Below, in pieces: positions 1,367-57,654 of a stretch of DNA of 64,000 nt. How positions within the stretch are numbered: position 1 is the stretch's first letter; each line of letters starts with the position of its first letter. This stretch comes from a virus. The stretch is from positions 1 to 64,000 of the IMG/VR virus record IMGVR_UViG_3300025168_000039. One strand, 5' to 3'. Position numbers and translations under genes: made by a program. The notes under the pieces were generated by a model. That model was not told where the DNA came from. It was given only the letters and a program-made list of their open reading frames with translations, and ran no database searches.

Positions 1367-1368
1367 TG

Positions 1369-1797
1369 TTATAGTTCCTTAGTTAATACGGTGGCGTATT
1401 TTTTATAATTAAATTTCTCTAACTTTCTTTTCCAACCATCTCTTGCAATTATTTTAATATGCTTTACATTATTTTGTTTTGCATATTTAACAATGTCAGA
1501 GTTATCAGACACACAATAGTCTAACCATTTGCTTATCGTCCCTGTCTTCGCACCTACTAAACAGATAGTAAGAACATTATAATTAGGATATTTATCAAGT
1601 TGGGTTGTTGCAGCGACAACAATTCCATTCTCTTCATTAAGACCAACCCACAACGCCATTACTTCTGTTACTAATAAATTATAAATATCTTCTAAGTTGT
1701 ACTCTCCATGACTTCTCTCTAATGGTTTAGCTAGTAAATCTTTTACATGCGGCCATGTAACTTCTATACAGTTTGACCTTATCTTTGTAACTTCCAT
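1369..1797 (-). CDS. GNAT-fold internal virion protein (T7 gp13-like)
   Basis: 142 aa. The sequence reads as the small GNAT-like family found in T7-type and marine podoviruses: a VTWPHV start, an ALWVGLNEEN strand-turn, and a conserved ending with ARDGWKR and TVLTKEL. In T7 the equivalent (gp13) is an internal virion assembly protein. A homologue is at 54301-54729, with the same ending (ARDGW, TVITREL). Both copies sit directly between the lysozyme-bearing protein (or a neighbour) and the large virion protein, which supports a virion role. Enzymatic acetyl transfer is not shown by the sequence. Confidence 0.7.
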   Translation of the reverse strand: MEVTKIRSNCIEVTWPHVKDLLAKPLERSHGEYNLEDIYNLLVTEVMALWVGLNEENGIVVAATTQLDKYPNYNVLTICLVGAKTGTISKWLDYCVSDNSDIVKYAKQNNVKHIKIIARDGWKRKLEKFNYKKYATVLTKEL

Positions 1798-3592: not shown

Positions 3593-5460
3593 TACCGTTT
3601 ACCATCTCGTTGGACAGCCATACGAACACTACCCCATCTCCATGAAGTATTGAAACTATTACAAGAAACTCTTACGTTTGCTTGTCTACCTCTACCTCTG
3701 AAGTCTATCTTCTTTGTCCCTGAATTAATTTCAAACGGTCCTTTCTCAACCTCACTAGCAGCAGGAAACTCTTTAAAGTTAACAGACATATTTAGATCAC
3801 CTTGATTTATAGTATAGTCAGGAATAATCCTATCTGCAAAAAGTAAATCATTACCATCTTCTATATCAAAGTCTGCTGACTGTAAGAAGGAAGACAAAGC
3901 TACTCCATCTCCTGTAAACACTGATACAGGTTCATTATCCCAGATATGAGGTGTTGCTCCTGCAGATACCTTTCCTGTTGCTATGGTGTTAGTAAATACC
4001 GTAGCATCTTTAAAGGTTGTATAGAAACTAGTTCCAAATGCCCAGGTATTTTCTTCATAGTTATATAAAACATAAGCGTCAGGTTCTAATGAATTTTCTG
4101 TGGGATAGAACCAAATAATTTCATGAAACTCTGAGTTTACTGCAGCGTATACTTTATCTCCCTGTGTCGAGTTAAAGTCATCATATACATATCTACGAAC
4201 CGTACAATCTAGTTTATCTATTCTACCATCAAATCTATAGAAGTTATTATCCCCCATCCAATAAGAAATACCATCTACGTTAATAGCTCCATGTTGACCT
4301 ACTAACCCACAGTTAGTTCCTAGTTGTGATAAGGAAAATATGAATGGTGGACCAACATACTGTAAAGAGTATAAGGCTTGATCAGACCAAACATGAATTG
4401 TATTACGCGATCTAATACCGCCTTTAAGAGTTGTTCCGTCTACTACTTGTAACTCACCTGATGTAGAAGAAACTGATGGCGTCCAGTTAGTAAAGTCTTC
4501 TTGGTCTGACCATCTAATTAACAAAGGATTAAAAGCACTACCAGAAAACTCATTTGTTCCAAAAGCAATGACATGTCTATCATTAGGAGACACAACAATA
4601 CTGTTAATACTAACAGGAGCAGTAGTTACAATAGCTGCTCTTACTGGTGAAGTACTTGCATTAGCATCCCAGTGTAGTAAATTACCGCCTCTACGAACAG
4701 CTAATAAATCTTCTCCAAAGTTATCTAATGACCACTGACTAGCAGCAAAGACTATATCCGAAGCTGTAGAAGGTTTATTCCATGCTCTTTCTCCTGATGT
4801 AGATACACCAGCATTGTATACTCCTGCACTATAACCTAAACCTTGAATGTTATCACTCTGTCCTGTTCTTAAAAGAAAGTTAACTGTTCCTGTACCAGCA
4901 CTTGTACTTGTAGCTGTTGCTACACTTGTAGTACTAATAAGAAAACGATTAGTTCCACTTGTACTAACTGCTCTAAATACAGGTCCACCAAAACTACTTG
5001 CAGCAAAATTAGTACTAGCGAAGTTTCTTATAGATGCACTAGTAAAGAAAATAAAATCATTTACTGAAACACCGTTAGCATTAAGACTAACTGCAATTTT
5101 ATTAGAACCTGAAATAGTTCCTAACTTACCTATTGTTCCATCTGTCCCTACAGTTACTGTACTTACAATAGGAGTTATGTCATGTAAAACATCACTGGCA
5201 AGAAGATATAGTTTTTGTTCTGTACCAAAAGACAAAAGTTTTTCTGTATTATTATTCTGCCAAGTAAGTAAATCTCTTCCTGTACCATCAAAGGTAGTAG
5301 ACAAATGTTTTTGATAACCACGTAAATTTTCTGGTTTACCTGCTCTAAAACGTACACGATCACAATCATACCAAGAACCACCCTCAGAGTATTCTGTAGA
5401 CTCTCTGTGTATTCCAGGTCTAAGACTAAATTTAAATAAGTTTGCTGATGTACTTGCCAT
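3592..5460 (-). CDS. Large tail protein, gp10-like (copy A)
   Basis: 622 aa, beta-rich with repeated short blocks, of the kind annotated in marine podoviruses as a P22 gp10-like tail or DNA-stabilisation protein. Visible conserved blocks include RPGIHRESTEYSEG near the N-terminus, CDRVRFRAGKPENLRGYQK, SPNDRHVIAFGT, RWSDQEDF, FIFSLSQLGTNCGLVG and a terminal SWRWGSVR. The 628-aa homologue at 57988-59874 matches these over its whole length. I infer a multimeric tail hub or plug protein. It sits between the 88-aa protein and an N-terminally conserved fibre-type protein. Confidence 0.75.
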   Translation of the reverse strand: MASTSANLFKFSLRPGIHRESTEYSEGGSWYDCDRVRFRAGKPENLRGYQKHLSTTFDGTGRDLLTWQNNNTEKLLSFGTEQKLYLLASDVLHDITPIVSTVTVGTDGTIGKLGTISGSNKIAVSLNANGVSVNDFIFFTSASIRNFASTNFAASSFGGPVFRAVSTSGTNRFLISTTSVATATSTSAGTGTVNFLLRTGQSDNIQGLGYSAGVYNAGVSTSGERAWNKPSTASDIVFAASQWSLDNFGEDLLAVRRGGNLLHWDANASTSPVRAAIVTTAPVSINSIVVSPNDRHVIAFGTNEFSGSAFNPLLIRWSDQEDFTNWTPSVSSTSGELQVVDGTTLKGGIRSRNTIHVWSDQALYSLQYVGPPFIFSLSQLGTNCGLVGQHGAINVDGISYWMGDNNFYRFDGRIDKLDCTVRRYVYDDFNSTQGDKVYAAVNSEFHEIIWFYPTENSLEPDAYVLYNYEENTWAFGTSFYTTFKDATVFTNTIATGKVSAGATPHIWDNEPVSVFTGDGVALSSFLQSADFDIEDGNDLLFADRIIPDYTINQGDLNMSVNFKEFPAASEVEKGPFEINSGTKKIDFRGRGRQANVRVSCNSFNTSWRWGSVRMAVQRDGKR

Positions 5461-5464
5461 TTTA

Positions 5465-6664
5465 TTATGGGGTATACTCTGTTATTTTAATATGCGACAT
5501 TGCAACACCATAATAAGGATCAGCGCCAGACACTAATCCATTAACTATACAAGTACCACCTTGAGCATTACCTATATGTACTTGAAAAGTTTTTTGAGAT
5601 GTGGCTCCTGCTGTAACTCTAACTCTTGCTACTAATGTAGATTGAGATGCTGCTCCAGCTTCAAAACTAAGACTACCACCTATTGCATTAGATACAGATG
5701 CATCAAATATAGCTATTCCTCTATTAGTATTATCACTAGCTATTCTTACCAACATTTCTACTTCAATAAGTAAAATATTGCTTGCAGATTGAGGTGTTAT
5801 AGTAATATCTAAAGCACTAACTCTATTACCTTCAGATAGTTGAGCAGGTGTACCCTCTTCAGGAAGAGCAGTATTCCCTACACCAACAACAGAAACCATA
5901 TCAACTGCTGTAACTTGAGCTACTAAATTAGTTGAGTTTGACCATTCAGGATTAGCACTTGAACCTTTAGTCTGCAAGAACTGACCGCTTGTACCTGCAG
6001 GAAGTCTTGCAATATTGCTTCCAGCATAATAATAAACATCTCCTTGAGCATCACTTCCAAAACTAAGTTTATTACCTAAACCATCAAATGCAGAAGCAGA
6101 TACTGTACCTGAAAATCTACCTGATACAGCAGATATAGAAGTGGTATGTATAGTAGTTGCAGATACAGTTGATGTTGTAATTTTAGTAGCATTAAGAACA
6201 CTAGTAGATACTGATGTAGCAGTAAGACTATTAGCGGTAAAAGAACTTACTGATGTTGGAAATGCAGTTTTATGTACATTAGTTCCATCAGTTGCTATCA
6301 TAACATTAGAACCTTGTTCTATTGTAATGGCTGTATTACCTGCAGTTTTAACTTTAAGAGCAAATGATCCAGATGTATTGTTTCTTACATAATACATCTT
6401 ATTAACAGAAGGAATAATAATAGAAGTTTCTGCGGTAAGTGTACCGTCAAAAGATAAGATAGCTTTACGTGATTGGTCTGTAGCACCATTAACCTGAGAA
6501 AGTGTTAAGGGCGTTGTTCCACTAACAGAGACTATTTGATATGCTGCAACCGCTTGATCAACTAGATCAATAACATTTGCATTGAGTATCGTTCCCCAAG
6601 AGTTAGGATTTTCTCCATCTCCTTGTTTCTCTAGTCTAATGTTTGTTGTAAATGTACTCGCCAT
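5465..6664 (-). CDS. Tail fibre/appendage protein (copy A)
   Basis: 399 aa. The N-terminal ~70 residues (TTNIRLEKQGDGENPNSWG, then VIDLVD.A.AAY) are a virion-anchoring domain common in marine phage fibres, and are nearly the same in the 324-aa protein at 59881-60855. After this come Ser/Thr/Ala-rich heptad-like repeats (TSVSTSVLN.TKITTS), typical of trimeric fibre shafts, then an unrelated C-terminal beta domain that probably binds the receptor. Function is inferred from this composition and from its place among tail genes. Confidence 0.7.
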   Translation of the reverse strand: MASTFTTNIRLEKQGDGENPNSWGTILNANVIDLVDQAVAAYQIVSVSGTTPLTLSQVNGATDQSRKAILSFDGTLTAETSIIIPSVNKMYYVRNNTSGSFALKVKTAGNTAITIEQGSNVMIATDGTNVHKTAFPTSVSSFTANSLTATSVSTSVLNATKITTSTVSATTIHTTSISAVSGRFSGTVSASAFDGLGNKLSFGSDAQGDVYYYAGSNIARLPAGTSGQFLQTKGSSANPEWSNSTNLVAQVTAVDMVSVVGVGNTALPEEGTPAQLSEGNRVSALDITITPQSASNILLIEVEMLVRIASDNTNRGIAIFDASVSNAIGGSLSFEAGAASQSTLVARVRVTAGATSQKTFQVHIGNAQGGTCIVNGLVSGADPYYGVAMSHIKITEYTP

Positions 6665-8293: not shown

Positions 8294-9781
8294 TTATTGT
8301 AGTGCTTTCACAGTCAGTAAGGAGAATGTAGTAGAACCATCATTTATTCTTGTAATATAAAAGAAAAATTCATGTCCATTTGTAGTTGTTATAGTATCTC
8401 CATCTGTAACAGTATAACCAGAAGTAGTTATAGTTCCTGCACTGGCATTATTTTTATATAATATAACCAGAGTACAATTTTTAGCAGGAACAGCTAATGT
8501 ATGTGCGCCTCCATTAGTTGCATACTGAAAATTTCCGTCATCAATATCAGGAGTAAATGTACCTGATGATTTTGTACCACAGTTATAAGCAGCAGCACTA
8601 AATCCTGCAGTTAGTTCATCTGGTGTATCAGCTTTTAAAATATCTGCATCAAAAGCCTCAACGTCACTTCCGATTGCTACCCCAAGATTTGTTCTAGCAG
8701 TACTATCACTAGCTAAACCTGAAAGATTATTTGCTTTTAATAGAGCAGCAGAATTAATAGATGTTATGGCTGCTTTGTTAACACTAGTTAATACACTTAC
8801 AGCAGCAATATTAGTATTACTATTACCTATGCTTGTTGCTAAAGCTGAAGAAGTATTAGCTATTCTTACTAAGTTGACACTTGTTAATGCACTAACTGCA
8901 GCAATATTAGTGTTACTATTACCTATGCTTGTAGCTAAAGCTGAAGAAGTATTAGCTACTCTTGTATTTACAGATGTTATAGCTGCTAAATTAACACTCG
9001 TTAACGCGCTAACAGCAGCTAGAGCAGAAGCACTAGGAACTGCAGCACCACCTATAAATACATTAGTAGCTGCAAATAAATTTGCCGCAGAAACATTACC
9101 ACTAAACTCTGCCGCAGTACCACTAACTTTGCCTGTAAAAGCTGCGCCATTTACAACAGTAAGTTGGTTAGTTGTAAAGGCTGCGACTGATGTAGCGGCA
9201 GATGCTTCAACGCCTGTTAAGTTTGATCCGTCACCAAAATAAGATGCTGCAGTTACATTACCAGTGAATTTAGCAGCAGTACCAAAGAATGTAGAAGCAG
9301 ATACTGCTCCTGTCATAGCAAGAGTTGTACCACTTACTTTACCTGTAAATATACCTGTTGCACCAGCGAATGTTGCTGCCGATACTATACCGCTAAACTC
9401 TGCAGTTGTTCCACTAACTTTACCTGTAAATGCTGCACCATTCACAACAGTAAGTTGATTAACAGTAAATGCTGCAACTGATGTAGCAGCAGATGCTTCA
9501 ACGCCTGTTAGATTAGAACCATCACCAAAATAAGTTGCTGCGCATACAGCAGCTATTATAGTAGCAGAGTCGCCTGTTATCTTTCCTGATGCACTAAGAG
9601 CAGCACCAACGGTTAGTTTACCTGTTGTCTCAACTTCAGAGTTACTTATTTTTAAAGCAGAGTTTGTCCCTTCACCATCTGAAACAAACCGTACAGTTGA
9701 ATCAACTCCGTCATTACTATTACTTACTTGAAGTAAATCTTTATAAGTGTTTGATATAAGTTTGCCAGTGAGTGTTGCCAT
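8294..9781 (-). CDS. Tail fibre with tandem shaft repeats
   Basis: 495 aa from ATG 9781 (MATLTGK), the start that overlaps the upstream stop codon; an upstream in-frame ATG at 9796 lies inside the previous gene. The shaft contains repeated units such as ATYFGDGSNLTGVEAS, VVNGAAFTGKVSG and TSSALATSIGNSNTNIAAVS, each present two or more times almost unchanged at DNA level too. The C-terminal ~100 residues form a beta domain (NCTLVILYKNN then FFFYITRIND). This is a trimeric fibre design; the target is unknown. Confidence 0.75.
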   Translation of the reverse strand: MATLTGKLISNTYKDLLQVSNSNDGVDSTVRFVSDGEGTNSALKISNSEVETTGKLTVGAALSASGKITGDSATIIAAVCAATYFGDGSNLTGVEASAATSVAAFTVNQLTVVNGAAFTGKVSGTTAEFSGIVSAATFAGATGIFTGKVSGTTLAMTGAVSASTFFGTAAKFTGNVTAASYFGDGSNLTGVEASAATSVAAFTTNQLTVVNGAAFTGKVSGTAAEFSGNVSAANLFAATNVFIGGAAVPSASALAAVSALTSVNLAAITSVNTRVANTSSALATSIGNSNTNIAAVSALTSVNLVRIANTSSALATSIGNSNTNIAAVSVLTSVNKAAITSINSAALLKANNLSGLASDSTARTNLGVAIGSDVEAFDADILKADTPDELTAGFSAAAYNCGTKSSGTFTPDIDDGNFQYATNGGAHTLAVPAKNCTLVILYKNNASAGTITTSGYTVTDGDTITTTNGHEFFFYITRINDGSTTFSLLTVKALQ

Positions 9782-10746: not shown

Positions 10747-10950
10747 CTAGTCTTTGTATTCTATGATTTTACCTGGATCATAGTCCACCACAACATCTTG
10801 TTCTTTGGCTTTAATCTGTGGACCTTTGCGTGCAGCGCCGTATCCCTGACCAGTAGGACGACCTGTCATCTTATCTATATCTTCTGCAGTACGAGGATTA
10901 CGAATATAATTATAAGTATATTCTTTTATTCCCTCTGGATTATTTGACAT
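10747..10950 (-). CDS. Small hypothetical structural-region protein
   Basis: 67 aa, hydrophilic, with NPRTAEDIDKMTGRPTGQG and a C-terminal DYDPGKIIEY block. No domain is recognised. It has a clear GGAG box (about 10963 on the minus strand) and sits 10 nt before the adaptor gene, so it is probably expressed. Similar short Gly/Arg proteins occur in marine phage late operons. Confidence 0.55.
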   Translation of the reverse strand: MSNNPEGIKEYTYNYIRNPRTAEDIDKMTGRPTGQGYGAARKGPQIKAKEQDVVVDYDPGKIIEYKD

Positions 10951-10952
10951 CT

Positions 10953-11081
10953 TTATCTCCTTTTAGACTTACCATTCCTATTTGTTTTTAAAGCAATTGA
11001 TCTAATAAGCTTATTTCTTTTTTTCTTTTTAGACGGTGCTTTAAGAATTTGTTGGCTTATCTTTGATCTATTTATTGCCAC
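10953..11081 (-). CDS. Tiny Lys/Arg-rich protein (GTG start)
   Basis: 42 aa reading frame beginning at GTG 11081 and ending two bases before the next start. It is extremely basic (KAPSKKKKRNK and GKSKRR) with no acidic residue. It belongs to a run of basic small proteins (11.0-12.7 kb). I infer possible binding to packaged DNA; the start codon and even its translation are uncertain because the ribosome site is weak. Confidence 0.4.
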   Translation of the reverse strand: MAINRSKISQQILKAPSKKKKRNKLIRSIALKTNRNGKSKRR

Positions 11082-11095
11082 TCTACATGTCACAA

Positions 11096-11245
11096 TTAGT
11101 AAAGACGATTATGAGATGCTTTGCCTGTAGCGCCACCTTTAGACATATACTTGCTTTTCTTCACCGCTCCACCCTTAGACATATACTTTGTTTTTTTCAT
11201 AGCGCCGCCCTTTTTCATCTTTGACATATACTTACTTTTTTTCAT
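11096..11245 (-). CDS. Tiny protein of three KKSKYMSKGGA repeats
   Basis: 49 aa. ATG at 11245 lies inside the 3' end of the upstream gene (14-base overlap) with the ATGAAAAAAAG start. The protein is almost entirely three tandem copies of a ~13-residue unit, KK(S/T)KYMSK(GGA), followed by TGKASHNRLY. The underlying DNA is repeated as well. Basic and low-complexity, it could be a nucleic-acid-binding or virion-packaged peptide. I do not know a named family. Confidence 0.55.
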   Translation of the reverse strand: MKKSKYMSKMKKGGAMKKTKYMSKGGAVKKSKYMSKGGATGKASHNRLY

Positions 11246-11909
11246 CTTCGGTTTCCTTTTGATATAAATTATTAAAAGTTAAATAAGGATTCATGTAGCT
11301 ATCATCTATTTCTGCTGAATGAATATACTGACTTGGTAAAAAGTCTGGCGCGCCTTCACCAGTTACCCATAAAGCAGGATTAGTTACTCTTACTCTATTG
11401 TTTGGTAATGCTACAATATTACCAGTATATTCTCCTGCATCAATTAATTCTAAAATATGCGACTGCTTATGTTGTGCAGGATCATCTGATATAGAACTAT
11501 CTGTATAATCTACCGTAAATAAATATCTCCCAGTGTGAAAAACATTGTCTATCTTACATAACCAAGGACTTGAAGATACTCTTTCCATTACTATTATAGC
11601 ATGATTTCTAGAAGAACAATCCCAAGGTTGAGCTAAATGGGTGGGCATTTTAACAGGCCATTCCTCTAACCTAGTATCAGCTACTAAAGCTGTGATGGGC
11701 ATCCTTGCCCACATTGCCCCACCATGTACATTTTCTTCTTCATCACATCCAGTAAATACAACATTAAAAGTTAATGATCTGTCTGGTATTGTATTAACTG
11801 CAATTACTAAAGCGTGTAAATATTCTCCTTCATAGTCCATATGGTTATTAGTAAATTCTTTACGCACCCAACATTTAAATTGTGGGATGTTTGAACTTAG
11901 ATATGTCAT
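11232..11909 (-). CDS. Conserved structural-region protein, unknown function
   Basis: 225 aa, beta-rich, with FKCWVRKEF and YEGEYLHALVIAV near the N-terminus, GGAMWARMPI and CSSRNHAIIV in the middle and LPNNRVRVTNPALW towards the end. The pattern is familiar from cyanophage and other marine phage genomes as a conserved hypothetical, often in late modules. No catalytic motif is apparent. It is flanked on both sides by small basic proteins. Confidence 0.6.
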   Translation of the reverse strand: MTYLSSNIPQFKCWVRKEFTNNHMDYEGEYLHALVIAVNTIPDRSLTFNVVFTGCDEEENVHGGAMWARMPITALVADTRLEEWPVKMPTHLAQPWDCSSRNHAIIVMERVSSSPWLCKIDNVFHTGRYLFTVDYTDSSISDDPAQHKQSHILELIDAGEYTGNIVALPNNRVRVTNPALWVTGEGAPDFLPSQYIHSAEIDDSYMNPYLTFNNLYQKETEDEKK

Positions 11910-11946
11910 TTTATTTTTTACTTTTATATTTGTAAGGTTTCTTTCT

Positions 11947-12258
11947 TTAACACTTCCATCTTTTTCTAGCTTGCCTAAGTCTTGAGTTAGGATTCTTAGC
12001 AGCTTTAGGAAACTTCTTCATCTGTCCTGCTGATCTAGCGCAATAACTCTTACGTCTTGCTGCTCTCTTACCAGTAGGTTTAGATTCAGTTACAGCAGTT
12101 TTAAGTTTACTACCAGGATTTTGTCTGCGGTATTTAGCTACTCCTTTAGCAGTTAGACCAGCACCAGATTTAGTAGGACGTTTATGACCACCACCGATAG
12201 TCATTCCTTTCATGCCTGTGCCTTTTCGTACACTTTTCTTTTTTGTTCTTACTGCCAT
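11947..12258 (-). CDS. Basic protein, DUF6321-like
   Basis: 103 aa, about one third Lys/Arg. The block SGAGLTAKGVAKYRRQNPGS followed by LKTAV matches the small DUF6321-type family of phages and giant-virus relatives. Later it has RKSYCARSAGQM and RLRQARKRWKC. Very basic late proteins of this sort may neutralise packaged DNA. It is next to another basic protein (12267-12740) and to the fibre/adaptor region. Confidence 0.65.
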   Translation of the reverse strand: MAVRTKKKSVRKGTGMKGMTIGGGHKRPTKSGAGLTAKGVAKYRRQNPGSKLKTAVTESKPTGKRAARRKSYCARSAGQMKKFPKAAKNPNSRLRQARKRWKC

Positions 12259-12266
12259 GCTATAAC

Positions 12267-12740
12267 CTATTTACCTTTCATAGCTCTGCCAAAACCTTTC
12301 TTGGCTACTCCACACCCTCTAGGCTTAATTTGACCACCTCCTGACTTAAATGTTTTTACCATTGTAGGCTTGCCGCCTACTCCTTGAGGTTTAGCTCTTT
12401 TCCTTTTAACAGCAGACTTCTTCTCAGAAGCTGACATACTTTTTGCTTTAGCAAGCGGCACACACTTAGGATATTTTCTTTTACTTCCTTTAGTAGATTT
12501 TCTACCACAAGGTTGATACTTACCATCCTTCTTTGGCGCACCAATGTCAACCCATTTCTCACCTACCCACTTCCGAAGACCGCCTCCCTTTTTCTTTTTA
12601 ACAGCCTTTTTCTTTTTCTTTCCACCAGGAGTTACTTTGCCACTACAAACTGCAGATGCATACATATTAGCATAAGCTGATGGATAAACATCAAACTTTC
12701 TTTTTGCTGCAGCTTTTCCTTTAGGACAAAGTTTAGCCAT
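12267..12740 (-). CDS. Lys-rich protein, DUF5872-like
   Basis: 157 aa. It contains LRKWVGEKWVDIG, then YQPCGRKSTKGSKRKYPKC, a block I recognise from DUF5872-type proteins. Before it lies a poly-Lys spacer and an N-terminal domain (CPKGKAAAKRKFDVYPSAYA) that also carries paired Cys. The spaced Cys residues could bind metal. The strong positive charge suggests nucleic acid contact in the virion; inference only. Confidence 0.65.
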   Translation of the reverse strand: MAKLCPKGKAAAKRKFDVYPSAYANMYASAVCSGKVTPGGKKKKKAVKKKKGGGLRKWVGEKWVDIGAPKKDGKYQPCGRKSTKGSKRKYPKCVPLAKAKSMSASEKKSAVKRKRAKPQGVGGKPTMVKTFKSGGGQIKPRGCGVAKKGFGRAMKGK

Positions 12741-12742
12741 AC

Positions 12743-13714
12743 TTAAACCCAGCCGCCTCCTGTACCTCTAGTACGTTTATTTCCTTTACTAGCACCTATA
12801 TTAGGTTTAAAACCTCTGAGTGCAGCACGAACACCGCGAGGTGCTTTACTTACTTTCTTCTTCTTACCTTTTCCTACACGACCACCCTTTGAGTCGCCTT
12901 CATAATCTTCTGCTTCTTCTAGTCTTTCACGTACTTCATCAGACATTTTATTCCTGTCTACTTCATACATTGTTTCATATCCCTCTTTTCGAGATATTTT
13001 ACCAGGATAAAAAGCATAACGTCCACCTTCTGTTGGATCGTTTGTTTTAGTAGCACTAACAGTCGGTTCTTTTCTAGGTTTTTTTGTTTCAATAGTAGGA
13101 GTAGTAGTAGTAGGTTTTTCAATACGTTTCTTAGGAACAGGTTTTTTCTTTTCTCCATTTGTAAGAACAGCAGCGGTTCCTGCAACTGCTGCTGTAGCTG
13201 CGGCACCACGACGAATATTTTTAGCTTTTTTAACTACTCCTTTACCTACTGGTCTAGAACCTAGTGGTTTACCATCTGGTCCTTTACCAAATGTTGGTTT
13301 AACAAGATTACCTGGAGTTTTTTGAACTACTGTTTTTGTTTTACCATCTGCACTTTTAATAATTTTAGTTTTAGTCTTCCCACCAACTCTTTTATCTATT
13401 CCTAATGCTAATCTAACAGCATCTATATTATTTTTACCTACTGCTGCTTTAAGGTTTTTAATAGCTTTAGGTGCTAATGTTGCTAGTTTAGCAGTAATTT
13501 TTGCCATGCCTAATCCAGGAATAGCATACGAAAGTACCTCTGCAGCAAGTCTTGCATTCTTTCTTGTTTCTTGAGTTTTTGGTTTTGCTATTTGATTTTG
13601 TCTTTTAAGCTGGGCAGGAAAACCTGAGCGTAGTCTTTGACGAATAGTCATTTTTTCTACAGCTCTTTTTTGCTGTTCGTTCAGGTTTTTATATTTTTCT
13701 TCTTTTGTAGCCAT
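12743..13714 (-). CDS. Long basic low-complexity protein with ALRGF tail
   Basis: 323 aa, rich in Lys, Thr, Pro and Ala. A hydrophobic Ala-rich patch near residue 175 (GAAATAAVAGTAAVL) could be a membrane-active helix. The C-terminus has GGRVGKGKKKKVSKAPRG followed by AALRGFKPNIG. The same GGRVGKGK...ALRGF ending is on the otherwise different 115-aa neighbour (13730-14077). It may be an internal or ejected virion protein. Not assigned to a family. Confidence 0.5.
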   Translation of the reverse strand: MATKEEKYKNLNEQQKRAVEKMTIRQRLRSGFPAQLKRQNQIAKPKTQETRKNARLAAEVLSYAIPGLGMAKITAKLATLAPKAIKNLKAAVGKNNIDAVRLALGIDKRVGGKTKTKIIKSADGKTKTVVQKTPGNLVKPTFGKGPDGKPLGSRPVGKGVVKKAKNIRRGAAATAAVAGTAAVLTNGEKKKPVPKKRIEKPTTTTPTIETKKPRKEPTVSATKTNDPTEGGRYAFYPGKISRKEGYETMYEVDRNKMSDEVRERLEEAEDYEGDSKGGRVGKGKKKKVSKAPRGVRAALRGFKPNIGASKGNKRTRGTGGGWV

Positions 13715-13729
13715 AGTAGTCTCCTCTAA

Positions 13730-14077
13730 TTAAAAGCCACGTAAAGCAACACCTGCTCCACGGCCTGAAAAGTTATTTCTTTTTTTAACTTTTTGTTTTT
13801 TATTCTTGCCTTTTCCTACACGACCACCGTCAGACTCACCAACAGAATCACTATTAGGACCACTAATGTTACTTGCTAAATCATAAAAGTCAGGCATACT
13901 TTCTTGTTGCTGTTCATAAGCTGTATCAAACTCTGCGTCTGACATACCATCACCTTTACCATCACCTTTTTTACGCTTTCTTTTTCCTCCTCCTTTATTC
14001 TTAGCATCCAACTCTCTTTGGTACTTTGTAGCAGGACTTTCATTAGGGTTAAGAGGATCAAAAATAGGACCGGCCAT
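13730..14077 (-). CDS. Small basic protein with GGRVGKGK...ALRGF tail
   Basis: 115 aa. It starts MAGPIFDPLNPNESPATKY, has a basic Gly/Lys linker, a GDGMSDAEFD block (compare GDGMSDEIPF in the lysozyme protein at 1798-3111), and ends GGRVGKGKNKK followed by GVALRGF at the extreme C-terminus. The end is shared with the downstream neighbour at 12743-13714. The recurrence of short blocks among unrelated late proteins suggests a common assembly or packaging signal. Confidence 0.5.
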   Translation of the reverse strand: MAGPIFDPLNPNESPATKYQRELDAKNKGGGKRKRKKGDGKGDGMSDAEFDTAYEQQQESMPDFYDLASNISGPNSDSVGESDGGRVGKGKNKKQKVKKRNNFSGRGAGVALRGF

Positions 14078-31619: not shown

Positions 31620-33287
31620 ATGGACAACGAAGAGAACGTATTGATTGAAGCACATAGGTCGTGCGATAGTTGCGGTTCATCAGATGCAAGAGCGTTGTAC
31701 TCTGATGGACATGAGTATTGTTTTAGTTGTCAAACAAGATTTGAAGGCGAAGGAGATTACCCTATCATGTCTAAACCTATCACCACTAATGTCACCCCAT
31801 TAAAATCTACTGAAGGAACAATAGCTTCAATACCTGATAGAAAGATAGCTTCTAACACTTGTAAAAAATACAATGTTAGAGTAGTTAAAGATCAAGAAGG
31901 TAATATAACAAAACATCGTTATCCTTATTATGATGTTAAAGGTAACCACATTGCTGACAAGGTTCGTATCGTAGAGACAAAAGACTTTCCAACAGAGCCG
32001 GTAGGAGCATTAGGTAAGGCTGTTCTGTTTGGTCAGAACCTTTTCAGTTCTGGTGGTAAATACGTTACAATTTGCGAAGGCGAGTTGGATGCCTTGTCTG
32101 CATTTGAAATGCTTGGAAGCAAATGGCCTGTGTTGTCTATCAAGAATGGTGTTCATTCTGCATTCAAAGATTGTAAGGCTAACTTAGAATACCTTTCAAA
32201 GTTTGATAATGTAGTCTTGTGTTTTGATGCGGATGACAAGGGAAAGAACGCATCACAACAAGTAGCCACACTGTTCGAGCCAAACACTTGCCGCATTGTT
32301 AACATGACTGATGGTAAGGATGCGTCCGAATACCTACAGGGTGGCAAGCGTGAACAGTTTTCCCAAGCATGGTGGAACGCCAAAGTCTACACCCCCGCCG
32401 GTATCCTTAATCTGGCTGACATGGGTGATGGCCTGTACGATGAAGGTGAGTACAAGACTTGTCTGTATCCATTCGAGGGTTTGAATGAGAAGCTGTATGG
32501 TATTCGTACAGGTGAGCTAGTAACATTCACGGCGGGTACAGGTACTGGTAAGTCCAGTGTCATGCGTGAACTTATGCATCATGTACTGAACAACACAGAA
32601 GAAAACATTGGCGTGATATCTTTGGAAGAGAATGTCAGGTCCACCATCTTCCACCTCATGTCAGTCGAGGCGAACGCTAGGCTGTACATTCGAGAGGTGC
32701 GTGACCAGTTTAGCATGAGTGACTTACGCACTTGGCAGGACGCAACGGTAGGCACTCGTAGATTCTTTGCCTTCGATCACTTTGGAAGCATGAAGACTGA
32801 TGAGATACTATCCCGTGTACGTTACATGGTGAAAGCGTTAGACTGTAAGTGGATATTCTTGGATCACTTATCAATCCTGGTGTCTGGTCTGGAAGGTGAT
32901 GATGAACGTAGGAACATTGATAATCTGATGACCAAGCTAAGATCGATTGTCGAGGAGACAAACGTAGCAATGCTTCTTGTCTCCCACCTACGCCGCGCAC
33001 AAGGCGACAACGGCCATGAGAATGGTAGAGAGGTTAGCTTGTCACACCTTAGAGGTAGCCAGAGCATAGCGCAGCTTAGTGATGCAGTGGTGGCTATGGA
33101 GCGTGACCAACAGTCTGATGATCCTAACATAGCCAACACAACAACCATCAGAGTATTGAAGAACAGGTATGCGGGAGATACAGGTGTAGCTTCTCACTTA
33201 TTCTTTAACAAAGATACGGGAAGGTTGACAGAGGTACACAATCTAGGTGATGATCCAGAAGGAGATAGTTCAGATAAAGAACTTTAA
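31620..33287 (+). CDS. Primase-helicase, T7 gp4-like (copy A)
   Basis: 555 aa. Zinc-binding domain CDSCGSSDAR then CFSCQTRF at the N-terminus; TOPRIM primase core with CEGELDALSAF and VLCFDADDKGK; RecA-like helicase with GTGTGKSS (Walker A, ~residue 300), IFLDHLSIL (Walker B) and HLRGSQSIAQLSD. It primes and unwinds DNA at the fork. The 553-aa copy at 35083-36744 aligns along its length. The first ~400 bases are AT-rich like the neighbours, whereas ~32.05-33.2 kb is clearly more GC-rich, suggesting internal recombination. It is the last intact gene before the junction scar. Confidence 0.88.
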   Translation: MDNEENVLIEAHRSCDSCGSSDARALYSDGHEYCFSCQTRFEGEGDYPIMSKPITTNVTPLKSTEGTIASIPDRKIASNTCKKYNVRVVKDQEGNITKHRYPYYDVKGNHIADKVRIVETKDFPTEPVGALGKAVLFGQNLFSSGGKYVTICEGELDALSAFEMLGSKWPVLSIKNGVHSAFKDCKANLEYLSKFDNVVLCFDADDKGKNASQQVATLFEPNTCRIVNMTDGKDASEYLQGGKREQFSQAWWNAKVYTPAGILNLADMGDGLYDEGEYKTCLYPFEGLNEKLYGIRTGELVTFTAGTGTGKSSVMRELMHHVLNNTEENIGVISLEENVRSTIFHLMSVEANARLYIREVRDQFSMSDLRTWQDATVGTRRFFAFDHFGSMKTDEILSRVRYMVKALDCKWIFLDHLSILVSGLEGDDERRNIDNLMTKLRSIVEETNVAMLLVSHLRRAQGDNGHENGREVSLSHLRGSQSIAQLSDAVVAMERDQQSDDPNIANTTTIRVLKNRYAGDTGVASHLFFNKDTGRLTEVHNLGDDPEGDSSDKEL

Positions 33288-33305
33288 CTACATGGTGGAG
33301 TGACT

Positions 33306-33428
33306 ATGAAAAAAATAATTCATGTAAACATGCATGTCATTCGTAAAAATAAAAAGAAAAGAGATGCGAAATGCAGGGAGCATTATTGTGTTTCCTTCTT
33401 TTATGTGGCATCAAATAACTCCAGTTAA
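33306..33428 (+). pseudogene. Truncated small gene fused to foreign sequence
   Basis: A 40-codon frame with a GGAG site. The first ~20 residues (MKKIIHVNMHVIRKNKK) look like the start of a longer marine-phage small protein that I remember beginning MKKIIHVNQH. After about codon 20 the frame continues out of register through the sequence that codes, in another frame, for an oxygenase end. I read it as the broken start of an A gene. Confidence 0.5.
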
Positions 33429-33483
33429 GTACGGCGACAGATATTCTATTGTCTGTTGGTACAAAGGACCACAATTTATGTGA
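33364..33483 (+). pseudogene. C-terminal fragment of a 2OG-Fe(II) oxygenase
   Basis: In the frame ending at TGA 33483 the sequence reads GSIIVFPSFMWHQITPVKYG, then DRYSIVCWYKGP. This is the last ~35 residues of phage PKHD-type 2-oxoglutarate/Fe(II) dioxygenases: the second iron-binding His, the Arg that binds 2-oxoglutarate and the closing W..GP strand. The rest (HxD motif, ~150 residues) is missing and the upstream sequence belongs to another gene. Ends 6 bases before the B-copy coiled-coil gene. Confidence 0.65.
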
Positions 33484-33489
33484 GGGATT

Positions 33490-33789
33490 ATGTTACAGTC
33501 ATTAAAAAATATTACTAAGGATATTAAATTAAAAGAAAAAGAGTTAAGTGGACGACCTGTTGGGATATTCTTATCATCAGCAAAGAGTTCGGAGCTATTT
33601 AACGAACTAAATAAAATAGATGAGCGGTTAGAACAGGACTTAATCTATTATAGAAAAACAATTATAGATATATTAGATGATGTTAATTCTATTAAGTTTT
33701 TAAATTTAAATCAGGAACGGTCCTTAAATAAAGTAGCAACACAATTAAATGTTTTGTTTGACGAAATAACTGCATCGCAGGATTCATAA
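33490..33789 (+). CDS. Coiled-coil protein, copy B
   Basis: 99 aa, GAGGG ribosome site. See the resemblance to 29978-30253 (VNSIKFLNLNQERSLNKVAT). Helical with Lys/Asp/Glu-rich heptads; first intact gene after the scar. Unknown function. Confidence 0.55.
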   Translation: MLQSLKNITKDIKLKEKELSGRPVGIFLSSAKSSELFNELNKIDERLEQDLIYYRKTIIDILDDVNSIKFLNLNQERSLNKVATQLNVLFDEITASQDS

Positions 33790-33790
33790 A

Positions 33791-33976
33791 ATGGATGACT
33801 TAGATATTTTAAAAAGAAATGTACTTGAGTTGAATACACAATTATTTAATGCTAATATTAGAATTAAAGAGTTAGTAGAAGAGAATAATTATTGTAGATT
33901 AAAATTAGAAGTTACAGAAGATAGTTTAGAAAAACTATCACAACAAGCCTTGGGCTACCGACAAAAATTTAAATGA
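33791..33976 (+). CDS. Small coiled-coil protein, copy B
   Basis: 61 aa with NIRIKELVEENNYCRLKLE. One base after the previous stop. Counterpart of 30259-30441. Confidence 0.55.
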   Translation: MDDLDILKRNVLELNTQLFNANIRIKELVEENNYCRLKLEVTEDSLEKLSQQALGYRQKFK

Positions 33977-33983: not shown

Positions 33984-34166
33984 ATGTCTAAAAATTTATG
34001 GGAATCAGACTACAAAAATATTTTTAAGAAACTTACAAGAGAGTATCAACGAGAAGGATATTCTTTAAGAGAGGCTAGAAGCTTATCTAAAAGAGAAGCA
34101 GACGAATTGATGGCTGATAGAAAATATTTTGTTGATAACTTATTAGATAATGCAGAGGACCAATGA
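33984..34166 (+). CDS. Small protein LWESDYK family, copy B
   Basis: 60 aa; see 31311-31490 for the shared blocks. Here it precedes ThyX (ATGA overlap), whereas copy A follows ThyX, so the gene order differs between the two blocks. Confidence 0.6.
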   Translation: MSKNLWESDYKNIFKKLTREYQREGYSLREARSLSKREADELMADRKYFVDNLLDNAEDQ

Positions 34167-34861
34167 GTGTATCTTTAATATCTTATACAAACCCTGCAAA
34201 ATTAGAATTAAATTCTGAGTATTTACCCGCTCATTTAAATTTTCAAAAACTTATAACATTCTGTGCTAGGGTTTCTAACCCTAACAATCAAGATAACTCT
34301 GAGACTGGTGAAAAATTATTAAGTTATTTAATAAAACATCAACACTGGTCACCGTTTGAGATGGTTAATGTTTGTCTTGAGATAGAGACAACAAGAGATA
34401 TCGCACGACAAATACTACGGCATAGATCTTTTTCTTTTCAAGAGTTTAGTCAAAGATATGCTGATCCCGTAAAAGAATTAAACTTTGTAACAAGAGAAGC
34501 AAGGCTTCAAGACCGTACCAATAGGCAAAACTCTGTTGAGGTAGATGATGACCTGCTTAGAATAGAATGGGAATGGGCGCAGAAAAGAGTTCTCTGGGCT
34601 GTGAAAAAAGAGTATGAATGGGCTATTAAAAAAGGTATAGCCAAAGAACAGGCGAGAGCTATCCTGCCGGAAGGCTTAACGATGTCTCGTATGTATATGA
34701 ATGGAACCTTACGATCATGGATACATTACATTCAACTACGCACAGATAAGGCTACTCAAAAAGAACATAGAGAAATAGCGCTTGAATGTTTACAAAAATT
34801 GAGTATAATATTTCCATTGATTAAAACACTAGGAGATAGAGATGAAGCGAAGAACATATAA
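34163..34861 (+). CDS. thyX: Flavin-dependent thymidylate synthase, canonical class (copy B)
   Basis: 232 aa. The canonical ThyX motif is intact: RQILRHRSFSFQEFSQRYAD (RHR-x7-S). HQHWSPFEMVNVCLEIETT and LPEGLTMSRMYMNGTLRSW are the other conserved blocks. Makes dTMP from dUMP. Within ~3.7 kb of a second, divergent ThyX (30431-31168); carrying both is redundant unless one is from another phage. Overlaps the following small gene by 20 bases. Confidence 0.88.
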   Translation: MSVSLISYTNPAKLELNSEYLPAHLNFQKLITFCARVSNPNNQDNSETGEKLLSYLIKHQHWSPFEMVNVCLEIETTRDIARQILRHRSFSFQEFSQRYADPVKELNFVTREARLQDRTNRQNSVEVDDDLLRIEWEWAQKRVLWAVKKEYEWAIKKGIAKEQARAILPEGLTMSRMYMNGTLRSWIHYIQLRTDKATQKEHREIALECLQKLSIIFPLIKTLGDRDEAKNI

Positions 34862-35082: not shown

Positions 35083-36744
35083 ATGAAGAAAGATGCTAAG
35101 TTTGTAAAGCATGTTAATTGTGATGAGTGCGGATCGTCAGACGGTAATGCCTTGTATGATGATGGTAGTGCTTTTTGCTTTGTTTGTAAAACATATTCAA
35201 AGGATTCTAGTATGCAAGATCAGGAACAAGTTAAACCCTCTAATACTAACCTTAAAGTTTACTCTAAAAACATGACTGAAGATAAAAACTATCAAGATAT
35301 TCCAGACCGCAAACTCACTGCCGCCACTTGTAAAGCCTACGGCATTTCTGTTGTTAAGGATGAAAGTGGAAATATTATTAAACATGTGTATCCTTATTAT
35401 AATACTGATGGTTCTCATGTAGCCAATAAGTTTCGAGTTGTCGCAAACAAAACCTTTCCTACTGAAGGTAACATCGCTAACGCATCTTTGTTCGGACAGA
35501 AAAACTTTCCTGCTAGAGGTAAATACGTTACGATTACCGAGGGAGAGTTGGACGCTGCATCAACATACCAAATGTTTGGTAGTCAGTGGCCTTGTGTTTC
35601 TGTAAGGTCTTCCACTACAGCGCTATCTGATTGTCAAAAGAATATGGATTATCTTAATTCATTTGATACTGTTGTTTTATGTTTTGATAAAGACAAAGCT
35701 GGAAGGGAGGCAGCGAACAAGGTTGCAGCTTTATTCGAGCCTAATAAATGTAGAATTGTAAAGCTTACAACATTTAAAGATGCTTCAGATTATTTGAAGG
35801 CTGGTTGCCGAGAAGAATTTACTAAAGCTTGGTGGAACGCTGAACCCTACACACCCGCTGGCATTATTAATTTAGGTCAGCTAGGAGACTCTCTCTATGA
35901 AGAAGATTTCTGTGAGAGTGTTGCCTATCCTTGGCCTTCTTTAAATGAAAAGACTTTTGGCTGTAGAACTGGAGAGCTTGTGACCTGGACTTCGGGTTCT
36001 GGTATGGGTAAGAGTTCTGTGTTAAGGGAACTTATGCATTATTTTCTACATCATACTAAAGATAATATAGGTATCCTTGCGCTTGAGGAGAACACTAAGA
36101 AGACGGCCTTCAACTTGATGGCAGTGGAAGCTAACCAAAGATTATATATTAAAGAAATTAGAGATCAATTTACCAGAGAACAGATGACTCGTTGGGAGGA
36201 GAAGACTATTGGGACAGGGAGATTTTTCGCTTTTGACCATTTTGGTTCTATATCTAACGATGAGATACTGTCTAGAATCCGGTATATGGCAAAAGCTTTA
36301 GACTGTAAATGGATATTCTTAGATCACTTGTCTATCCTTGTGTCTGGTCAAGAAGATGGGGATGAGAGGAGAGGTATAGATGTTCTGATGACTAAGCTAA
36401 GAAGCTTGGTTGAGGAGACAGGTATATCTTTAAACCTTGTGTCTCACCTACGTCGAGCAAACTCTTCAAAGTCCCACGAAGAAGGTGGAGAGGTTAGCCT
36501 TGCCCATCTTAGGGGTAGCCATAGCATAGCTCAATTATCAGACATGGTATACGCCTTGGAAAGAAATCAACAAGAGACAGATGAGACTCTTGCTAATACA
36601 ACACTTGTTAGGGTTCTTAAAAATAGATATAGTGGTGAGGTAGGTCCATCAACATATCTTTTCTATGATAAAGAGACAGGACGTTTAACCGAGATATCCA
36701 ATCCATTCGAAGTTAGAGAAGAAGAAGAAGGAGAAGCATTTTGA
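35083..36744 (+). CDS. Primase-helicase, T7 gp4-like (copy B)
   Basis: 553 aa with an AAGGAG site. CDECGSSDGN and CFVCKTYS zinc motif, TOPRIM TEGELDAAST and VLCFDKDKAGRE, Walker A GSGMGKSS, IFLDHLSILVSGQ, HLRGSHSIAQLSD. Same architecture as 31620-33287 but more AT-rich throughout and clearly diverged. It heads the DNA replication run that continues with nuclease, PolA and SSB. Confidence 0.88.
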   Translation: MKKDAKFVKHVNCDECGSSDGNALYDDGSAFCFVCKTYSKDSSMQDQEQVKPSNTNLKVYSKNMTEDKNYQDIPDRKLTAATCKAYGISVVKDESGNIIKHVYPYYNTDGSHVANKFRVVANKTFPTEGNIANASLFGQKNFPARGKYVTITEGELDAASTYQMFGSQWPCVSVRSSTTALSDCQKNMDYLNSFDTVVLCFDKDKAGREAANKVAALFEPNKCRIVKLTTFKDASDYLKAGCREEFTKAWWNAEPYTPAGIINLGQLGDSLYEEDFCESVAYPWPSLNEKTFGCRTGELVTWTSGSGMGKSSVLRELMHYFLHHTKDNIGILALEENTKKTAFNLMAVEANQRLYIKEIRDQFTREQMTRWEEKTIGTGRFFAFDHFGSISNDEILSRIRYMAKALDCKWIFLDHLSILVSGQEDGDERRGIDVLMTKLRSLVEETGISLNLVSHLRRANSSKSHEEGGEVSLAHLRGSHSIAQLSDMVYALERNQQETDETLANTTLVRVLKNRYSGEVGPSTYLFYDKETGRLTEISNPFEVREEEEGEAF

Positions 36745-37250: not shown

Positions 37251-38912
37251 ATGAGTGTAGTTCTTGACATAGAAACAGATGCTATTGATGCAACAAAAAT
37301 TCATTGTATTGTTGCTTATGATATTGAAAGTAAAAAGCCATATACCTTTGTAGGAGATGAGTGTTACATTAAGTTTCCTAATTTTGCTAAAAGTGTGTCG
37401 CAATTTGTGATGCATAATGGTATATCTTTTGATGCTCCTGTACTTAACAGGCTTACCGGAACTGACATTCAATATGATAGGATCATAGACACAATGATCT
37501 TATCACAACTTTATAATCCAATAATAGATAACGGTCATAGCTTAAAATCTTGGGGCGTTAGATTAGGAATCCATAAAGGTGAGGTTGAAAGCTTCAGTAA
37601 TTTCTCTGAAGATATGCTGGACTATTGTAAACAAGATGTTAATGTAACATACTCTTTATATAAATATTTTAAACAACAACAAAATATATTCTCTGCTAGA
37701 TCAATTCAACTTGAGCATAAGATAAAAAGTATTATTGATGAGCAGGAGCGTAATGGGTTTTATTTAGACTTACAAAAGTCTACTACGTTTGTGTCCTCTG
37801 TTGAAGATAAGATGGACACCATTGAGAATGAATTACAAAATATATTTCCACCCCATGTCATCTCTGGCAGAACACATAAAAGATCAGGCAAACCTCTTGC
37901 TGATATTGTAACTCCATTTAATCCTGCATCTCGAAAGCAAATAGCAGATAGATTACAAGGGCTTGGATGGAAGCCAGAAAAGAAAACAGACAAAGGAAAT
38001 ATAATTGTAGATGAGGCAGTCTTAGAGACAATTGATTTGCCAGAGGCAAAGAAAATATCTGAATACCTTTTGTTAGGTAAGAGATACTCTCAAGTTAAAT
38101 CTTGGATCGAAGCTTCTGATTCTTCAAGTAGAGTTCATGGGAGAGTTCTAACTCTCAGGACTGTTACAGGTAGGATGGCTCACACCTCTCCAAACATGGC
38201 TCAAGTTCCCGCTGTTTATTCTCCTATGGGGAAGGAGTGTCGAGGAATGTGGGGCGTATCTGATCCTGATAATTATTCCCTAATAGGTACAGACGCATCA
38301 GGTCTAGAGCTTAGAGGTCTAGCACATATGATGGATGATCCTATCTTTATTAAAGAAATATTAGAAGGTGATGTACATACAGCCAACCAGAAGATGGCCG
38401 GTCTTGATAATAGAGATCAGGCGAAAACATTTATCTATGCATTAATGTATGGAGCAGGTGCTGCAAAGATTGGTAAAATTGTAGGTGGCACCGCAAGAGA
38501 GGGAGAGGAATTAATATCTAAGTTTATGAAAAATATGCCTAAGTTTTCCTCTCTTAAAAATAATTTAAATCAAACTGTAGAAAAGAATGGAGTCATACCT
38601 GGACTAGATGGTAGAACCCTACAGGTTCGATCTCCTCATGCTGCTTTAAATACTTTAATACAGGGAGCTGGTGCTGTTATATGTAAGCAGTGGCTTGTTC
38701 AGATTAATGAGGCATACAAAAGAAAAGGACTAGATGTAAAACTTGTAGCTAGTATTCACGATGAGTACCAATTTGAGGTACACAATAAAGACTGTGAAGA
38801 GTTCGGTAAGATAACTAAAACTGCAATAAAGGAGGTAGAAGAAATATATTCGTTTAGATGTCCATTAGATTCCGAATATAAAGTTGGAAAAAACTGGGCT
38901 GATACACATTAA
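37251..38912 (+). CDS. polA: Family A DNA polymerase with 3'-5' exonuclease
   Basis: 553 aa, the compact phage length. Exonuclease part begins VVLDIETDAI (ExoI Asp/Glu), with HNGISFDAPVLNRL (ExoII) and DYCKQDVNVTYSLYKY (ExoIII). Polymerase: TDASGLELRGLAHMM (motif A), AKTFIYALMYGAG (motif B) and SIHDEYQFEV (motif C, His-Asp). It replicates the phage genome with gp4 and the SSB. Only one polymerase is found, in the B half. ATG 37251 with GGAGG upstream. Confidence 0.92.
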   Translation: MSVVLDIETDAIDATKIHCIVAYDIESKKPYTFVGDECYIKFPNFAKSVSQFVMHNGISFDAPVLNRLTGTDIQYDRIIDTMILSQLYNPIIDNGHSLKSWGVRLGIHKGEVESFSNFSEDMLDYCKQDVNVTYSLYKYFKQQQNIFSARSIQLEHKIKSIIDEQERNGFYLDLQKSTTFVSSVEDKMDTIENELQNIFPPHVISGRTHKRSGKPLADIVTPFNPASRKQIADRLQGLGWKPEKKTDKGNIIVDEAVLETIDLPEAKKISEYLLLGKRYSQVKSWIEASDSSSRVHGRVLTLRTVTGRMAHTSPNMAQVPAVYSPMGKECRGMWGVSDPDNYSLIGTDASGLELRGLAHMMDDPIFIKEILEGDVHTANQKMAGLDNRDQAKTFIYALMYGAGAAKIGKIVGGTAREGEELISKFMKNMPKFSSLKNNLNQTVEKNGVIPGLDGRTLQVRSPHAALNTLIQGAGAVICKQWLVQINEAYKRKGLDVKLVASIHDEYQFEVHNKDCEEFGKITKTAIKEVEEIYSFRCPLDSEYKVGKNWADTH

Positions 38913-55428: not shown

Positions 55429-57654
55429 CTATGCTAAAAATGATTCTAAGCCCTGTTTAATAGGCTTCTGCTGTTTTTTATTTCCTGTTGCTTTATGTCT
55501 TATGTTTTTAACAAAACCATCTAACTTCTTTGCACCTGAAGTAGAAGACCCACTTCCTATCATAGCAACTGTATCTGCAGGTATAACATATTCATCTGGA
55601 CTTAATAAAGCCATATCAGGATTATCACCTTCTACTTCAAATAAAACTTGATCTGATTGTCCATCTCCAGGTCCAATTACTTTACCTTCGAAGTATTGTC
55701 CAATCCCTCCTCCTTTATTATAAAGTTCGACATCAGGAATCCGATGAAACATATTTAAACTTTCTTCCATTCGTCTTTCTATGTGAGGTACTCCAGGACG
55801 TAAAAAAAGATCTGATATAGCTTTAGCTCTATCTTCTACTGCTCCCATTCCTTTACCTAATAAAATTTTTCTTAGCCTTTGTCTATTTCCTGGACCAGCA
55901 TCATATGGAAGTACTCCTTCTCCTTCAGTACTAGTCATTTGTTCATGGGCATATTCCATTTGATTTTGTTCATTATTTGGTAATTTATTATCTTTTAGAT
56001 ATCTTTTATAATCTTTCTGTCTACCTTGTGTAAATTGAAACAAGCCCAGACCTTGATTTAATCCTTTTTTCTTTCCACTCTCTCTTTGAGTACCTTTAAA
56101 GGTAGGTGCCTCAACTGCTATATTACCCATAATAGCAGCTATGCTTTCACTAGGATACTTTTTTTCTTTATAAAAATCATAAACTACTTTTTGTTTAGGA
56201 GTAAAAGAATTTTTTTTTGAGCCATTGCGGGGAGTACCCCCATTAGCAAGGCCAATAAGACCACCTTTATTAAACCCGAAATCTGCTCCAACATTAAAAC
56301 CATCTCCTCCTTGACCATAAGGTGTAGCGATAGCTCCAGGGTCTTGATTTACCTGTCCTACCATAGCATTTAATGTTGCTCCACCTACTGCATCCGAAAT
56401 AAATTTATCAACTTCCGATGCTGCTTTCTTCTTCTGTAAAATTTCTTCTTCTTTTCTTTTATTTTCTGAATCAACCGTTTCTTCTTCGACAACTGTATCG
56501 GTTTCTTCTACAGCCACTTCACCTCCTTCAGCTAATGTAACTGTATCATCATCAACATATCTAAATGGTGTTAAGCCTTGGCTAATCCCACCTTCTAAAG
56601 CAAGTCTAGTATAATCTTCTTGTGTAAAACCTTCTTGAGTAGGTTCACCACCTTCTAGGCGTAAAGGTCTACGAGTATATGTATCTTCTAATGCAGCTAA
56701 ACCTCCATCTGCATTAGGATCAAATTCTGGAGGAGTCATCACAGCTTCCATCGCACCAAATGCTAGAGGAGTATAGGTTGATGGTCTTTGCAGTAATGCA
56801 CCTGCCATTTGAGTAGTTGTTAGTGGTGCCCCACCCGCTTGTTCTAAAGCTTTTTGAGCAGCCACCGCACCTTTTATGCCAAAGTCTCTAACAAATGTTG
56901 TTGCTGGAATATTTTGACCAGCAGCAAATGGGGCAGCATAGGCGACTCCTGATTGTTTAGCTATTTCTGCAGTAACAGGAACCGTTTGAAATCCTTGTGA
57001 TGCACCTGCCATTTGAGTAGTTGTTAGTGGTGCCTGACCCGCTGCCGGGAAAAAGGATGGTGATACTGGTCCCACAGATACTGGTCCCATGTTTGAAAGA
57101 GCCGTTCCAGCATTTGCTCCTGCAGAAGCAACATTAGTACCAGTTTGAAGTCCTTGTGAAGTTAGTGCCTGATTAGATGCCTGTTGTGCTGCTGCTGTAG
57201 AAGCACCTTCAACGCCAAGTCCTGCTTCTAATGCAGCCGAACTTGGACCCATCATACCTGTCATAACACCAGCGGTAGCACCAGATATTAAACCACCTAC
57301 AAGAGCATCAGTTGGTGATTGACCTGCCGCAAGTCCACCAGCAAATGAACCAACACCAGCACCAACACCAGCACCGGCAGCAGCACCAAAAGCACTACCT
57401 CCAAATGCTGTACCAAGACCCGGACCAAGCAATACAGTACCAGCAATCGCACCTACGGCTGGTAACAATGATCTAAAATTAAAAGCTTCTGGTAATCCCG
57501 TTTCTGGATTTACAGTTAGTTGGCCCATACTAGATAGACCAGCTAATTCATCTGGGCGCACATGCAACAGTTCTGTATCACCATACCGTCCTTGCGCAGC
57601 CATTAGCCCTGCTATGCCACTATACGGAGCCTCTTGATTCCTCATCGCTACCAT
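55429..57654 (-). CDS. Virion protein with phage tail-lysozyme domain
   Basis: 741 aa. N-terminus GDTELLHVRPDELAGLSSMG, then TVNPETGLPEAF resembles the N-terminus of 51951-54299. A Gly/Ala hydrophobic segment (~65-160) could insert in membranes. About 475-640: KQKVVYDFYKEKKYPSESIA, IMGNIAVEAPTF, GLGLFQFTQGRQKDY, the pattern of Phage_lysozyme2 tail lysozymes. The C-terminus GDGQSDQVLF, DEYVIPADTV, IGSGSSTSGAKKLDGF matches the end of 1798-3111, which has a GH24 lysozyme instead. Also a GGLIGLANGG motif as in the neighbour. Confidence 0.75.
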   Translation of the reverse strand: MVAMRNQEAPYSGIAGLMAAQGRYGDTELLHVRPDELAGLSSMGQLTVNPETGLPEAFNFRSLLPAVGAIAGTVLLGPGLGTAFGGSAFGAAAGAGVGAGVGSFAGGLAAGQSPTDALVGGLISGATAGVMTGMMGPSSAALEAGLGVEGASTAAAQQASNQALTSQGLQTGTNVASAGANAGTALSNMGPVSVGPVSPSFFPAAGQAPLTTTQMAGASQGFQTVPVTAEIAKQSGVAYAAPFAAGQNIPATTFVRDFGIKGAVAAQKALEQAGGAPLTTTQMAGALLQRPSTYTPLAFGAMEAVMTPPEFDPNADGGLAALEDTYTRRPLRLEGGEPTQEGFTQEDYTRLALEGGISQGLTPFRYVDDDTVTLAEGGEVAVEETDTVVEEETVDSENKRKEEEILQKKKAASEVDKFISDAVGGATLNAMVGQVNQDPGAIATPYGQGGDGFNVGADFGFNKGGLIGLANGGTPRNGSKKNSFTPKQKVVYDFYKEKKYPSESIAAIMGNIAVEAPTFKGTQRESGKKKGLNQGLGLFQFTQGRQKDYKRYLKDNKLPNNEQNQMEYAHEQMTSTEGEGVLPYDAGPGNRQRLRKILLGKGMGAVEDRAKAISDLFLRPGVPHIERRMEESLNMFHRIPDVELYNKGGGIGQYFEGKVIGPGDGQSDQVLFEVEGDNPDMALLSPDEYVIPADTVAMIGSGSSTSGAKKLDGFVKNIRHKATGNKKQQKPIKQGLESFLA

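Follow-up and report, generated by a model that had tools for sequence, protein, structure and literature searches.

Two related podophage-like genomes joined at a shared 491-bp repeat in a single 106.9-kb virus record

The window analyzed here comprises positions 1–64,000 of the IMG/VR record IMGVR_UViG_3300025168_000039 (106,894 bases); positions written as contig coordinates are those of the whole record. On the plus strand of the window, a primase-helicase gene (gp4-A, 31620–33287; Pfam DnaB_C 2.5e-24 and Toprim_2, PHROG 239 4e-179) is directly followed by a small gene starting at 33306, which reads 18 codons of its own (33306–33359) and then 22 foreign ones up to a stop at 33426–33428, giving a 40-aa frame over 33306–33428. 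The bases 33360–33483 (stop at 33481–33483) are the plus-strand 3′ end of a 2OG-Fe(II) oxygenase gene, and the window has no HxD part ahead of them. An earlier note on this DNA, made from its letters and open reading frames, had described a small gene that loses its register after ~20 codons and a headless oxygenase tail of ~35 residues; both are present as described, the tail being of about 40 residues. Further downstream on the same strand lie two short ORFs of 99 aa (33490–33789) and 61 aa (33791–33976), the gene of a ThyX-type thymidylate synthase (34163–34861; Pfam Thy1 8.9e-43), a second primase-helicase gene (gp4-B, 35083–36744; PHROG 239 2.7e-177) and a family A DNA polymerase gene (37251–38912).

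Over the whole record, two podophage-like genomes were recognized: X, at contig 1–33359 and 88572–106894, and Y, at 33360–88571, which has a copy of a repeat, R, at both of its sides. R measures 491 bp, 488 bp of it foreign to X, and its copies at 33357–33847 (plus strand) and contig 88081–88571 are 99.8% identical, differing by one mismatch at 33727 (A in the window copy, C in the other). Because the right half of the junction is the left edge of so long and so well conserved a repeat, the junction is not a chance one. R includes the 99-aa ORF of Y entirely, and its end supplies the first 57 bases of the 61-aa ORF. With 88.9 kb of the contig compared, R was the only DNA of at least 31 bases common to X and Y. 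In X, the left edge of R shows three shared bases (AAA) and the right edge none, and the BLAST repeat begins at 33357 rather than 33360 because AAA is common to both sides. Neither a target duplication at the edges nor a recombinase (Pfam, PHROG) was found, which ruled out R as a transposon or other mobile element; terminal inverted repeats were likewise not apparent, here on visual inspection of the edge sequences.

When window 33306–33359 was joined to contig 88572 onward, a single open frame of 76 aa was obtained that matched PHROG 8676 at 1.3e-26, its first 18 codons coming from the left side and the other 58 from the right. Among 50,697 phage records, 29 matched the joined protein, 28 with a query coverage of 80% or more. 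So did 597 of 599 IMG/VR stretches among the peptide-pattern matches listed, and the frame ran uninterrupted across the junction in all 80 of the best IMG/VR relatives. With the bases right of the junction as query, five contigs carrying an empty site were found (L011, which is the same contig as L093, and L094–L097). In these, the X left flank (96–97%) abuts the right flank (88–95%) with no base gained or lost, and the PHROG 8676 gene is intact. Since these five relatives carry the bases up to 33359 directly before those from contig 88572, the breakpoint was placed base-exactly at 33359|33360; compared with the empty sites, no X base was lost or doubled at the cut.

The record of one of these contigs, L096, is a 54,081-bp genome (G001) that shows the X order circularly permuted and without Y. 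Contig 96005–96987 maps to its end, 97019–99000 to its start, 101001–103299 to its positions 4029–6327 (at 95% identity) and window 1–3000 to 10791–13793. On this map, both ends of the 106,894-base record lie in X, at an estimated distance of no more than about 1 kb; the last 2 kb of the record gave no match in three related records. R is absent from G001 save for a weak 67% match over 104 bases, which by its position is presumably the relative's own oxygenase. As a separate observation, contig 103300–106894 (~3.6 kb), holding a minus-strand gene of 1198 aa that is open at the record end, had no match in G001, with a similarity of 92–97% elsewhere; this gene may be a swapped or fast-changing virion gene.

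Y was found alone as IMGVR_UViG_3300001450_000050 (54,422 bp), which was matched over the two stretches read (L091 and L092). One of them aligned with contig 45502–33747 over 11,756 bp with 1 mismatch (99.99%), and the other with contig 88177–82001 without mismatch and with one 9-bp gap. Both ends of this Y record lie inside R, and the middle 293 bp of R (33454–33746), with them the allele at 33727, are missing from it. Two further Y-type contigs, L098 and L100, are 91–93% identical over the stretch right of 33357 and carry the native order in Y: an intact oxygenase, a 99-aa-type ORF (92 aa there), a 61-aa-type ORF (60 aa there), a 60-aa ORF, ThyX, a 52-aa ORF and the primase-helicase. The oxygenase of Y is intact elsewhere in our record, as a 186-aa gene at contig 87647–88207 (Pfam 2OG-FeII_Oxy_3 4.3e-14). 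The earlier note had envisaged a full oxygenase gene after correction of a frameshift; a full gene does exist, at the other end of Y, and it rules out a frameshifted full oxygenase at the junction. The 99-aa ORF matched neither Pfam, PHROG nor any of 50,697 phage records, and its relatives, found only in L098 and L100, are ~70% identical, whereas the stretch from R to the primase is 91–93% identical in DNA.

As judged by these comparisons at the level of sequence, R belongs natively to Y, it is foreign to the relatives of X, and the cut in X is clean. Each half of the composite has separate relatives with native order, L011 and L094–L097 of the X type and 3300001450_000050, L098 and L100 of the Y type, and the shared repeat R lies at each switch point of the composite (33357–33847 and contig 88081–88571).

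The left part of X (1–33359) carries structural genes on the minus strand and early and replication genes on the plus strand, an extent based on the order in G001, and Y continues after R from 33848 to 64000 and on to contig 88571, as based on the record of Y alone. The polymerase of X lies at contig 88889–90613, and the polymerases of Y and X matched Pfam DNA_pol_A at 1.4e-55 and 3.7e-51, respectively. Between the second copy of R and the X polymerase no second primase-helicase is encoded, and in the parts read X and Y alike carry a single gene each for primase-helicase, DNA polymerase and ribonucleotide reductase. Nor were two systems found in any one relative, as the stretches read of X-type L094 and L096 and of Y-type L091, L092, L098 and L100 each held at most one primase-helicase. 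Terminase-like (521 aa) and portal-like (854 aa) ORFs of Y in L092 matched X regions at 71% and 69% DNA identity; the terminase of X has Pfam support, and that of Y is identified by its DNA match to the X region. By composition (GC, tetramers), X was not separable from Y. X and Y are related but distinct podophage-like genomes of ~52–55 kb, and the doubled replication block is two phages fused in the record, not one phage with two systems. The two replication blocks, of which the earlier note had the second start at the junction, belong to two phages. This reading accounts for both the two replication blocks and the two sets of structural genes in the window, and no phage with a doubled replication system need be invoked.

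Among the nearest named phages are the podoviruses of the HTVC023P/HTVC027P type, which infect pelagic bacteria (pelagiphages), and Roseobacter CRP-901/902, with genomes of 52–61 kb and portal proteins at about 40–43% on the amino acid level, too distant for X or Y to be called members. The portal matches at 40–43% were to Phage DSL-LC04, HTVC027P, HTVC023P, CRP-901 and 023Pt_psg01, all of 53–62 kb, and the same phages ranked first with the tail protein (about 31–34%). By portal and tail proteins together, the known relatives of X and Y are mostly of 52–62 kb, not 107 kb. For HTVC023P-type genomes, PMC9599517 states an average size of 58,776 and notes the presence of 2OG-Fe(II) oxygenases.

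The last 46 X bases before the junction occurred in only two other IMG/VR contigs, L009 (8,050 bp, sample 3300001718) and L010 (5,492 bp, sample 3300001589), and in both R follows, joined at the same base as in the window. L009 ends inside R and L010 on the last base of R. They are 99.7–99.8% identical to the window, with 14 and 17 mismatches including Ns and about 10 base differences each, and L010 carries Ns and two inserted bases inside R. The two contigs come from two IMG samples, which may belong to one project. The occurrence of the fused arrangement elsewhere, which the earlier note had set against its own reading, was thereby found in part, as the X|R junction in these two metagenome contigs. 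No IMG/VR contig with R|X-right was found outside this record, and a pattern ~180 bases right of R in X gave 0 contigs. The left edge of R in X is thus present in three records and the right edge in one; for an X molecule with both edges of R and without Y, the left edge is seen in L009 and L010 and the right edge in this record only. Because R|X-right was seen in this record alone, X-R-X as a free molecule, i.e., X with a 488-bp insertion, is what we infer rather than observe. At 33727, C is found in L010, beside X-left, and in the copy beside X-right, and A in the copy beside the late genes of Y. These alleles fit an X that carries R(C), a Y that carries R(A) and a path that switches within R, with separate molecules as the simplest explanation, one base being weak evidence.

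At the level of sequence the junction is real, and two genomes meet in it, the marine-type phage X left of 33359 and phage Y to the right, as the earlier note had proposed when it spoke of an illegitimate join; it does not stem from a deletion. Probably, illegitimate recombination brought 488 bp of Y into the X lineage, and the assembler then threaded circular Y through X at R. In the first step, a 488-bp piece of Y comprising the 3′ end of the oxygenase gene, the whole 99-aa ORF and 19 codons of the next ORF would have been joined into the PHROG 8676 gene of X, presumably without usable homology and exactly between two X bases; 33359|33360 is the left edge of R in X. X and Y would then share 491 near-identical bases, and an assembly path that used R twice and met Y as a loop would yield X-left, R, all of Y, R and X-right, the 106.9-kb contig. 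Less likely as the second step is a single crossover at R between coinfecting genomes, from which an identical layout would result. At the right edge of R, the 19 codons from the 61-aa ORF of Y run in frame into the last 58 codons of the PHROG 8676 gene of X, forming a 77-aa fusion (contig 88515–88748). Because of this in-frame joining, X may still make part of the PHROG 8676 protein; the chance of an in-frame fusion is one in three.

The remains of a deletion, which the earlier note offered as its other reading, would be a scar within one phage that carries two replication systems, and the presence of two primase-helicases as well as two polymerases in a single record does point that way; however, the missing half of each broken gene is present at the other end of Y, the half-gene of X resuming at contig 88572 with no X sequence lost, and relatives with a single system exist for both genomes. 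A deletion scar is accordingly hardly credible, and a deletion within one genome is ruled out by those gene halves together with the empty-site relatives. It is unlikely that all of the junctions are artefacts, X-left|R being a chimeric join from the library or the assembler and X having no insertion at all. R|X-right is indeed found only in this record, and both L009 and L010 end in R, the latter on its last base, but an identical, base-exact junction occurs in three records that show base differences from one another, the 3 shared bases at the join are far too few for an assembly overlap, and at the right edge X resumes with precisely the base that follows the left edge in the empty site.

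A real cointegrate, in which a 107-kb X::Y molecule exists in cells, produced by one crossover at R or by a terminally redundant Y genome being ligated into X where X was broken, would have exactly the layout of the contig, that of a single-crossover product, and the recurrence of X-left|R in two other samples would agree with it. Nevertheless, the nearest known phages are only about half as large, Y occurs by itself at 54.4 kb, relatives of X lack both Y and R, and the allele at 33727 is better explained by separate X and Y molecules, all of which makes a cointegrate very unlikely. A more elaborate scheme, and a most doubtful one, would take R as the physical terminal redundancy of Y, let complete Y insert into co-infecting X as 107-kb cointegrates, and let loop-out at R leave the 488-bp scar, as in L009 and L010; were it true, this scar would be the trace of phages that cointegrate and resolve in a cycle.

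Acquisition of R by X followed by misassembly would combine two kinds of event that are already known, composite contigs and illegitimate recombination between phages. The CheckV paper (PMC8116208) describes contigs that repeat the same genome, together with a k-mer frequency test for them. Similar to the composite or concatemeric IMG/VR contigs treated there, the present record holds more than one genome equivalent, but the k-mer test as described addresses copies of one and the same genome. Because X and Y have only R in common, we would expect this record to pass that test unflagged. Mosaicism of phages by illegitimate recombination is described in PMC3945230 and PMC9836094, and R likewise is a short segment that would have moved between distinct phages without usable homology at its edges. 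What differs here is that the donor, recipient and empty sites are all base-exact, and R cuts genes at both edges rather than following gene borders. If a free X-R-X molecule is confirmed, R would be a small, recent and base-exact transfer between distinct phages for which the donor, the recipient and the empty site are all known. On this reading, the case shows that a short phage-to-phage fragment can lead an assembler to fuse two near-complete genomes into a large false one, and such a fusion may escape a test for repeated genome copies.

X has an intact 2OG-Fe(II) oxygenase gene of its own at contig 97571–98137 (188 aa, Pfam 1.5e-15), directly after its ribonucleotide reductase gene, with ~67% DNA identity to the oxygenase of Y near the 3′ end. 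Among the replication genes of X, a GDP-mannose 4,6-dehydratase (4e-129), a DegT/DnrJ/EryC1 aminotransferase (2e-71) and an HSP20-like protein (3e-10) are encoded, at L004 9771–12021 and 16217–16663 (L004 6515 being contig 88515). Direct repeats were also found within structural genes of the window, at 9082–9250 and 9373–9541 (84% identical), at 8732–8867 and 8830–8963 (82%), and at 56793–56839 and 56997–57043 (94%).
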